The notes beneath the pieces are model-generated. The model was not told the DNA's origin and searched no databases. It saw only the letters and a program-made list of their open reading frames with translations. From positions 1-30,131 of the IMG/VR virus record IMGVR_UViG_3300042867_000091: a DNA stretch of 30,131 bases, one strand, 5' to 3'. Made by a program: the position numbers and the translations under genes. This DNA comes from a virus. Shown here one piece after another: positions 26,251 through 30,131 of the stretch. Positions within the stretch are counted from its first letter, which is position 1; every line of letters begins with the position of its first letter.

Positions 26251-27291
26251 TTACTTGCTCTTGTCCGGTTCATATTCTTTTGATAGTTTGTAGTTTGTAA
26301 TCACATCAATCATTTGCTTTTCACCATTTCTTTCAATTAGAACTTTGATCTTTTCGTCAGCACCACTTATTGTGGCCATTTCGGAAACCAAACTATTAAC
26401 ATCGGTAATTTTCAAACCAGTTGGATGATTGTTTGGTGTATAAATTTCCAGTATCTTATCACCAACTTTGATTCCTGCCTTATCAGCAGCACCATTCTCA
26501 TCAATTGAATTTACTATAGCATAGTTCCCATCATCTGTCAACCCAATACTTACATTCATTGCTCTCCATCTAACTTCACCGAATAATTGGAAATCACCAA
26601 GGACTTTCTTGAGCAGAACAGAAGGAATACAGAAACCATATGATCCACCTTTTCCTTCAAACATCAATTCGCTAACACAGATAACTTCCCCTTGTTCATT
26701 GAAGACAGGACCTCCTGAGTTGCCTTGAAAAATTTTAGCATCAACTTGATCTACATACTTTGGATTTGATCCTACGCGACGATTTTTGGAAGACATAATA
26801 CCTTCGGAAACTGTCCATGTGAGTCCCCACGGATGACCAATAATAACTACCTTGCTGCCTTCTTCCATCTCACGACTATCACCAATCGGAAGAATAACTG
26901 CTCCCTCATGTTTCTTAAACTCATCCCACTTCTTTAACTTAAGAATTGCTATATCAACAATAGCATCGGTACTAATAACCTCAGCCTCATAACGAGTTTG
27001 GTCATTGGCTGACACAACAGTTAGTTTGCCATTGCCTTCAATAACATGATCATTCGTAACGATTAAGTTCTCGCCTATAATGAATCCAGTACCGATGCCC
27101 CCGTTTGTGGTATCAAGCTTATTTTCTATGAGTACTGTGCCTTTTTTAACTGTACGGACTACTTGTTCAGTGCTTTTTATAGAACCAAATGCCCCTGTAT
27201 ATAAGACAACAGTTGCAGTGAGGAAAGATATTATAATAATATACAGTATTATACATATATGATGTCTTATGGGAAAATCTTCTGTCTTCAT
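26251..27291 (-). CDS. Membrane-anchored HtrA/DegP-like serine protease with PDZ domain
   Basis: 346 residues. A transmembrane helix (about residues 12-33, HICIILYIIIISFLTATVVL) should anchor it with the protease in the periplasm. The trypsin-like domain has a complete triad: His82 in LIVTNDHVIEG, Asp113 in AIVDIAILKL, Ser192 in FQGNSGGPVFN. Residues about 235-335 form a PDZ-like domain (YAIVNSIDENGAADKAGIKV followed by GDKILEI). This is the DegS/DegP layout with one PDZ. The start overlaps the upstream membrane gene by ATGA and the stop abuts gp33, so it is coupled to the channel genes. Possible roles: processing envelope or channel proteins, or acting on host surface proteins; none is shown by sequence. 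Such a protease is not part of the T4 core set. Confidence 0.9.
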   Translation of the reverse strand: MKTEDFPIRHHICIILYIIIISFLTATVVLYTGAFGSIKSTEQVVRTVKKGTVLIENKLDTTNGGIGTGFIIGENLIVTNDHVIEGNGKLTVVSANDQTRYEAEVISTDAIVDIAILKLKKWDEFKKHEGAVILPIGDSREMEEGSKVVIIGHPWGLTWTVSEGIMSSKNRRVGSNPKYVDQVDAKIFQGNSGGPVFNEQGEVICVSELMFEGKGGSYGFCIPSVLLKKVLGDFQLFGEVRWRAMNVSIGLTDDGNYAIVNSIDENGAADKAGIKVGDKILEIYTPNNHPTGLKITDVNSLVSEMATISGADEKIKVLIERNGEKQMIDVITNYKLSKEYEPDKSK

Positions 27292-29293: not shown

Positions 29294-29749
29294 TTATTGC
29301 AGAGTTAATGCGGCAACGGCAGCAGCGACATTAAGTCCTGTCTGACCCTGCACACTGAGAGGCTGAAGTGTAATGTTGTTATTCAGCCCACCTACGAGAG
29401 CGTTAGCTCCCAATCCAGCAACTACGGTAGCTTCGGCATTAACGCCAATGTAAGTACCAGAAAGATCGGCACCAGAACCGGTTGGCGACATTACGATCCA
29501 TGCGATGACCTTATTGTCGGTATATCCAATGTCAACACCAATCTTGGTGATGTTGCCCTTATACTGAGTCTTCTTTCCATTAGAAGCAGTAAATACGCAA
29601 TCAACCTTCTTGCTTGAGCCAATAACCCAACCCCAGCCAGAATGTACCTTGCATGAAAGAACACCAGTCTTAAGTTCAGCAGCATTAGCAGATGAGGTTG
29701 CAGCGAATAGACCCAGTGAAATTAGGGCCGCAGTGAAAAACTTCTTCAT
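29294..29749 (-). CDS. Secreted DUF992 family protein
   Basis: 151 residues. A signal peptide (MKKFFTAALISLGLFAATSS, then ANAAEL; cleavage after residue 23 or 24) is followed by a complete DUF992 pattern: TGVLSCKVHSGWGWVIGSSK, VDCVF, YKGNITKIGVDIGYTDNKVI, then LSGTYIGVNAEATVVAGLGA and NITLQPLSVQGQTGLNVAAA. Cys33 and Cys51 may form a disulphide. DUF992 proteins are small periplasmic or outer-surface proteins known mainly from Rhizobiales chromosomes; function is unknown. A phage copy suggests acquisition from such a host. It follows the tmRNA, with GGAG before ATG 29747-29749. It may act in the envelope with the channel/protease genes, an inference from proximity. Confidence 0.87.
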   Translation of the reverse strand: MKKFFTAALISLGLFAATSSANAAELKTGVLSCKVHSGWGWVIGSSKKVDCVFTASNGKKTQYKGNITKIGVDIGYTDNKVIAWIVMSPTGSGADLSGTYIGVNAEATVVAGLGANALVGGLNNNITLQPLSVQGQTGLNVAAAVAALTLQ

Positions 29750-29796
29750 TATTATATTCTCCGTTATGTTAAATGGTGGAGGGATTCTGTTTCCAA

Positions 29797-29823
29797 GCTC
29801 CCTCCGGGCTCATGTTAGGCTGC
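29797..29823 (-). repeat. tmRNA segment matched downstream of gp32
   Basis: GCAGCCTAACATGA plus AGGGAGC with a six-base gap on the minus strand, the same layout as at 23649-23675. Here it covers the last two tag codons, the stop, and the start of the following stem. Confidence 0.6.
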
Positions 29824-29856
29824 GAGAGCCATACGAGGTGCAAAGTTATCGTTTGC
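29815..29856 (-). other. tmRNA tag reading frame: ANDNFAPRMALAA
   Basis: The resume codon GCA (29854-29856) begins 13 codons and TAA. The peptide ANDNFAPRMALAA starts with ANDN and ends ALAA, as alphaproteobacterial tags do; LAA is the known ClpXP recognition end. Confidence 0.92.
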
Positions 29857-29938
29857 AACTATTGTTTTGCGCTTGAAGTAGTCGCCTACTATTATCTCCA
29901 GTTACCTATTTCACTCTTGTCGATCCTGTTTCGCCCCC

Positions 29939-30027
29939 ATCAGAGATACACCATACTGGTGGTATTAGTATGATTTATTCCCACATTCACAGCCTTACAA
30001 GTCATACAGTAGGTCGTGGTGTATCTT
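29939..30027 (-). other. Intervening segment of the permuted tmRNA with a 10-bp closing stem
   Basis: The 89 bases between the acceptor CCA (ending 30028) and the coding-piece 5' G (29938) contain a perfect inverted repeat, AGATACACCA (30017-30026) and TGGTGTATCT (29944-29953). This stacks next to the acceptor stem in the precursor. In known permuted tmRNAs this segment is removed, giving two RNA pieces. Confidence 0.85.
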
Positions 30028-30131
30028 TGGTGGAGGCGCGGGGTACTGCCCCCCGGTCCAAGTAGTCTTTCAGTTTCCTTCATCGATAATATTTGCGAAT
30101 GAATAGTGGTCCAAAGCGATAGCATATGTAA

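Follow-up and report, generated by a model that had tools for sequence, protein, structure and literature searches.

The window analyzed here, the whole of IMG/VR record IMGVR_UViG_3300042867_000091 (30,131 bases), is a fragment of a T4-like myovirus that carries near its end a gene for a permuted transfer-messenger RNA (tmRNA), that is, a two-piece RNA whose acceptor piece is encoded ahead of its coding piece. Using the Rfam covariance models, we locate a complete gene of the alphaproteobacterial type at 29775–30119 on the minus strand (the strand of all tmRNA features described below): RF01849 (alpha_tmRNA) matches 30119–29775 over all 355 model positions (105.5 bits against a gathering threshold of 50, E 4.3e-28), and RF04321 (tmRNA_permuted) matches 30089–29815 over all 213 model positions (115.6 bits, E 3.5e-22). 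A first-pass annotation had proposed a phage-encoded permuted tmRNA here, leaving its strand unstated; the two full-model matches and the T4-like gene content bear this out. Of the two kinds of search that this annotation suggested, the covariance model of the permuted alphaproteobacterial type gives the significant match just described, and ARAGORN makes no tmRNA call on the window. ARAGORN does call a permuted tmRNA in the sibling locus L130, with the same tag as that of the window (ANDNFAPRMALAA); because Rfam matches the window and ARAGORN calls L130, the missing call is a false negative.

The acceptor piece (30028–30119; its 5′ end is approximate and is taken from the start of the RF01849 match at 30119) contains the T-arm, CGGGG-GGCAGUA-CCCCG (30039–30055), which matches the model, covaries across relatives and has the alpha-type T-loop GGCAGUA; this is followed by the acceptor 3′ strand CGCCUCC and an encoded A73-CCA (ACCA; together 30028–30038). 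An intervening segment (IVS) of 89 nt (29939–30027) separates the two pieces; it contains no endonuclease gene in the window, and an HNH gene occupies the equivalent site in the sibling loci L128, L131, and L133. Its two ends form a closing stem (30017–30026 with 29944–29953) that extends the acceptor stem. The coding piece starts with the acceptor 5′ strand GGGGGCG (29932–29938), which forms seven of seven pairs with the 3′ strand, including the G3-U70 pair (29936 and 30034). Farther along are the conserved AAACAGGAUCGAC 3′ of the acceptor stem (29919–29931, placed by the coordinates of the RF01849 match); a small hairpin, GUAG-GCGA-CUAC, in the pseudoknot region ahead of the tag (29878–29889, from the covariance-model alignment); the tag reading frame (29815–29856, with the resume codon GCA at 29856–29854 and the stop codon UAA at 29817–29815), identified by the model and by the ARAGORN tag in L130; and the 3′-terminal hairpin of the coding piece, GGAGGGA-GCUUGGAAACAGAA-UCCCUCC (29778–29805), in which seven of seven pairs covary across relatives. 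The tag is of the ANDN type and has a hydrophobic, ALAA-type end. All parts are present in permuted order, among them the acceptor stem with G3-U70, the T-arm, the resume codon, and the tag that the first-pass annotation had listed. The record ends 12 bases beyond the 5′ end of the model, so the promoter of the tmRNA is not visible; a short open reading frame (ORF; MYTIDWIWDIKYWAV..RKYYR) overlaps the 5′ flank of the acceptor piece (approximately 3548–3670 in L129, extending into the window at approximately 30090–30131, minus strand), so transcription of the tmRNA may start at the promoter of an operon farther upstream.

Compensatory changes across relatives in the T-arm, the acceptor stem, and the terminal hairpin show that the fold of the tmRNA is under selection. 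For 16 relatives, with the sequences for acceptor covariation collected by motif and position and not by pairing, 99.0% of the cells for the T-arm and acceptor pairs are standard (74.8% in shuffles), 43 cells are double changes (12.6 in shuffles), and G3-U70 is invariant (16/16). The terminal hairpin is drawn as unpaired in RF01849, yet all seven of its pairs covary: 97.4% of the cells are paired, compared with 51.6% after shuffling, with 30 double-change cells compared with 8.1 (0/500 shuffles). The pairing of the IVS ends, which lengthens the acceptor stem, recurs as well; for 89 distinct phage IVS, it averages 10.1 contiguous pairs, compared with a mean of 4.7 and a maximum of 5.2 when IVS ends are shuffled across loci. 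This extended stem makes it very probable that the IVS is looped out of the folded precursor. The tRNA-processing enzymes, for which excision of the IVS is established in permuted tmRNAs (PMC11915505), would then remove it from the precursor; the acceptor and coding pieces would remain base-paired, and the two-piece tmRNA would act with the SmpB of the host to add ANDNFAPRMALAA to stalled nascent chains.

The IVS differs among siblings. With the adjacent DUF992 gene as bait, we fetched ten close relatives from IMG/VR; the IVS is short (69–99 nt) in L125, L126, L127, L129, and L130 and long (481–493 nt) in L128, L131, and L133, where it contains an ORF of 142–144 codons. This ORF encodes an HNH endonuclease (Pfam HNH, 8e-5 and 1e-4; PHROG 655, homing endonuclease, 4.5e-13); a structural model gives the beta-beta-alpha order with moderate confidence, and the protein has profile matches to HNH chains in the PDB. 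The same site is, then, occupied by a putative homing-endonuclease gene (HEG) in L128, L131, and L133 and free of it in the window, L125, L129, and L130. The comparison of L129, the locus nearest to the window, with L128 is instructive: 377 of 390 positions are identical in the upstream flank and 686 of 700 in the downstream flank (97–98%), whereas the 28 nt of T-arm, acceptor strand, and CCA match at only 18. The two acceptor strands change jointly, from GGGGGCG/CGCCUCC in L129 to GGGGAUG/CAUCUCC in L128 (GGGCUAG/CUAGUCC in L133), that is, in the siblings the IVS of the window has been replaced together with the adjoining T-arm and acceptor stem, with pairing (including G3-U70) kept. As the IVS has one acceptor strand on either side, a single replacement tract is enough to exchange the complete stem.

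We then asked how widely this arrangement occurs; two profile scans of viral contigs returned HNH relatives. Every tblastn match above 150 bits sits in the IVS of a permuted tmRNA and none below 125 bits does, as judged by flank analysis and inspection; these IVS residents amount to 18 distinct proteins, encoded on 28 contigs, and at least 18 different alleles of phage tmRNA carry one. The HNH-bearing IVS is 464–525 nt long where both ends were found automatically, and longer in L231; in most resident loci, the Rfam match spans the HNH gene. Our first tmRNA finder favored GGGGGCG acceptors because its scan pattern did; for the HEG loci, we turned to a relaxed version, which found nothing in shuffled loci. 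Four weaker members of the clade (L165, L173, L181, and L198) are divergently oriented neighbors of a tmRNA or of its acceptor piece, and no tmRNA match was found in 18 other free HNH loci that were scanned. In these four loci, we also observe a TAGGATCGAC-like sequence in the spacer between the HNH gene and the acceptor piece; in L165, the HNH gene is flanked by two acceptor pieces. The HNH genes are under purifying selection, with proportions of nonsynonymous differences (pN) of 0.07–0.40 and of synonymous differences (pS) of 0.53–0.88. A single clade of tmRNA-associated HNH proteins is not rejected (approximately unbiased test, p 0.457), so the trees are compatible with a single origin but do not establish it. 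No isolate phage searched has the resident form; the nearest isolate relatives are free-standing cyanophage HNH genes that share mainly the N-terminal domain. A bacterial origin of the HEG was considered and rejected; a scan of one genome per species (84,980 species) returned only three weak HNH relatives, none in a tmRNA. These locus comparisons show the IVS to be a variable site that houses one HNH lineage in the siblings and in at least 18 tmRNA alleles.

The leaders of the resident genes suggest how such an enzyme might be expressed from within an RNA gene. A TATAAATA-like T4 late-promoter motif is present in each of the 17 resident HEG leaders tested, and nearly all of the leaders that were folded place this motif within a hairpin in which the Shine-Dalgarno (SD) region is paired. 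A read-through tmRNA precursor would, with this arrangement, not be translated into the HNH enzyme, and a late transcript that starts within the leader hairpin would yield it. The leaders also contain a motif resembling AAUAGGAUCGAC of the tmRNA: 14 of the 17 HEG leaders reach 9 of 12 matches, compared with 0 of 46 leaders of free HNH genes, in a test in which the start codons of L142, L165, L173, and L181 were set too far upstream, lowering those rows. We regard this operator-like copy as a lead only; it would fit autorepression, and operator-like autorepression is known for I-TevI.

We conclude that this T4-like phage has, in the window, a complete two-piece tmRNA gene of the alphaproteobacterial type, and we consider it likely that the window is a HEG-free allele of an IVS site to which an HNH lineage homes. 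The broader proposal, which we hold as probable with more reserve, is that the IVS is a dedicated, splicing-free home for tmRNA-specific HNH homing endonucleases in T4-like phages of alphaproteobacteria; that each homing event exchanges the T-arm together with the two acceptor strands, as one cassette, and thereby drives turnover of the tRNA-like domain with pairing kept, the window being a HEG-free allele; and that IVS are also nested-gene sites for conserved small proteins. In mixed infections, the HNH enzyme would nick or cut HEG-free, window-like tmRNA alleles, and recombination repair, with the HEG-plus allele as the template, would bring in the HEG, the T-arm, and both acceptor strands. 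The tmRNA would stay paired after homing because the tract copied in a permuted gene carries both acceptor strands and the T-arm, and the element could sit in an essential-type RNA gene without splicing because the IVS is discarded during maturation.

Several points weigh against this interpretation. It was built by comparing sequences, and nuclease cleavage, homing, late expression, and processing of the RNA are deduced from these comparisons; the window itself contains no HEG, so that the homing model draws on its siblings. The tight link between family and site arises partly by construction, since two resident proteins served as the seeds of the search; in the poorly resolved tree, the 22 tmRNA-associated HNH rows need two label changes; and the AAUAGGAUCGAC resemblance was picked out only after the leaders had been inspected, and a free search prefers another match in some loci.

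Of the other explanations, the one that survives best, although we judge it unlikely, is a plain phage permuted tmRNA whose IVS is a neutral, insertion-tolerant spot where free-standing HNH endonucleases have landed without any targeting of tmRNA. Phage IVS do contain other, unrelated small ORFs, so the site tolerates inserts, and HNH relatives with other C-termini are found elsewhere in phage genomes; however, one HNH lineage recurs at this site in divergent tmRNAs, its non-resident clade-mates adjoin a tmRNA whereas the 18 other HNH loci scanned have none nearby, and the tract replaced in L128 takes in the two strands of the acceptor stem, the outcome expected of co-conversion. We find it quite improbable that the phage tmRNA is a decaying copy or a decoy that inhibits the host tmRNA: a tmRNA of phage DS6A that lacks the coding sequence does inhibit the endogenous tmRNA (PMC11915505), and no smpB was recognized among the genes of the 30-kb window, but here the tag is intact with its ALAA end and is conserved in all siblings of the window, the CCA and G3-U70 are intact, and covariation is strong. 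Chimeric metagenome assembly as the source of the HEG-bearing tmRNAs is very improbable; all HEG-plus loci do come from metagenomic virus contigs, with no counterpart in the isolate collection, but the same junctions recur across dataset numbers (L128 and L131; L140, L141, and L142; L174, L175, L183, L187, and L188), and the compensatory acceptor-stem changes agree on both sides of the HEG. To explain the long IVS as a group I intron with its homing endonuclease is scarcely credible even though intron-form tmRNAs with LAGLIDADG HEGs exist (PMC11915505), as the gene is permuted and has its insert after the CCA end and before the acceptor 5′ strand rather than in the T-loop, and the nuclease is of the HNH type. 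No group I or group II intron was matched in the HEG loci scanned; in the window, the T-arm is contiguous, with no group I intron match.

The rest of the window places the gene in its phage context. The T4-like assignment is based on homologues of gp32, gp59, and the baseplate-wedge protein gp6 and on a gp33-like late-transcription coactivator. Among the nearest named relatives of the gp6 homologue are those in cyanophages, in the Pelagibacter phages HTVC008M and Mosig, in Melnitz, and in Sinorhizobium phages, with <60% identity in every case; a megablast search with the structural genes found no match among isolate phages, so the phage has no named close relative. The DUF992 secreted-protein gene (29294–29749, minus strand; Pfam PF06186, E 6e-47) lies 25 nt after the tmRNA on the same strand; its cellular relatives are on Rhizobium/Sinorhizobium-type (Rhizobiales-type) plasmids (<60% identity), and it has no match in isolate phages. 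The tmRNA type and DUF992 lead us to infer an alphaproteobacterial host; no direct host link was found. Also in the window is a gene for a trypsin-like serine protease that has a PDZ domain and is hydrophobic over a segment near its N-terminus (26251–27291, minus strand); the gene is flanked by small unassigned genes on one side and the late coactivator gene on the other.

The first-pass annotation had further suggested capture of a host-type gene or a phage strategy that might sustain translation while host RNA decays. The model, the alphaproteobacterial type of the tag, and the plasmid-borne relatives of DUF992 are consistent with such a capture; the synteny with Melnitz speaks against a fresh one. 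The order tmRNA, gp33-like coactivator, gp59 is common to both phages (the window has several extra genes between the tmRNA and the coactivator), and this placement of the tmRNA upstream suggests that it is old in this phage group rather than newly acquired. The novelty implied for a two-piece tmRNA on a phage did not hold up: the permuted tmRNA of the OM43 phage Melnitz has been reported, 53 two-piece forms are included among 133 unique phage tmRNA structures, mostly marine or aquatic, and phage-borne permuted tmRNAs are known from Melnitz, Mosig, and approximately 50 others (PMC9004378). We also find permuted tmRNAs in the roseophages DSS3_MAL1 and MD18 and in Rhodobacter phage RcXuper; in the two roseophages, a GOLLD RNA adjoins the permuted tmRNA and tRNAs (L002, 3394–3857; L003, 3237–3704). 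A phage-borne permuted tmRNA is, by itself, ordinary and already known.

Phage tmRNA IVS also hold conserved small proteins. A membrane peptide of 38–59 aa (..VMFKxYIxWSICADIxLIxG..), preceded by an SD sequence, is conserved inside the IVS of L042, L056, L062, L088, L098, L112, L118, L123, L048, and L026; the median pS of 0.74, compared with a pN of 0.18, identifies it as a real protein. A second conserved small ORF, MDEVILWEFRK..YICINNYS..HARL.., begins within the IVS and extends into the acceptor 5′ strand (L020, L074, L079, and L097). The IVS of the Melnitz ssrA (L298) contains an ORF with an SD sequence whose C-terminus, KIPKYLSGTR, resembles that of the KIPKYLSGRR ORF in the 499-nt IVS of L022; it is absent from the annotated features of the record of this cultured phage.

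The presence of an HNH homing-endonuclease lineage in the IVS of permuted phage tmRNAs is apparently an undescribed arrangement; a literature search of open-licence PMC papers found no description of endonuclease genes in a tmRNA spacer. Homing endonucleases persist by hiding in stretches that the final product lacks: introns (lost from the spliced RNA) and inteins (lost from the spliced protein). If our interpretation is correct, a permuted RNA gene offers them a further hiding place in its discarded spacer, one that does not require splicing. Permutation would then shape the evolution of the gene, because both acceptor-stem strands flank the element and co-conversion exchanges a self-consistent stem; homing would offer one reason for the high variability of the acceptor and T-arm sequences of phage tmRNAs. 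Standard finders miss such tmRNA genes, which provide a natural system for testing homing into an RNA gene.

Each of the known systems shares some of these features. The window resembles the tmRNAs of RF01849/RF04321 in gene order, in the acceptor stem with G3-U70, in the T-loop GGCAGUA, in the ANDN-type tag ending in ALAA, and in its full-length match; unlike typical members, it is phage-borne, its IVS is variable, and a protein gene occupies the IVS of its siblings. The ssrA of Melnitz (a Methylophilales phage) and those of other marine myophages (PMC9004378) are likewise permuted tmRNAs in T4-like phages, upstream of the gp33-like coactivator and gp59; Melnitz differs in its tag (ANDNYVPVDYALAA), in a 142-nt IVS without an HNH gene, and in a tmRNA sequence unlike that of the window, and the window has no Rfam match to a glutamine riboswitch (glnA type). 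The intron-form tmRNAs with LAGLIDADG HEGs (PMC11915505) also have a homing-endonuclease gene that is within the tmRNA gene and absent from the mature RNA; the sibling loci, however, contain no intron, and their HNH gene is in the IVS of a permuted gene. The closest parallel for expression is with T4 I-TevI, mobE, and segB: a late promoter inside an RNA hairpin that sequesters the ribosome-binding site has been described for I-TevI, I-TevII, I-TevIII, segB, and Aeh1 mobE, and segB is located in the tRNA region (PMC2988022). The HNH lineage described here would differ from these in its target and in its site, within the discarded segment of a permuted tmRNA.
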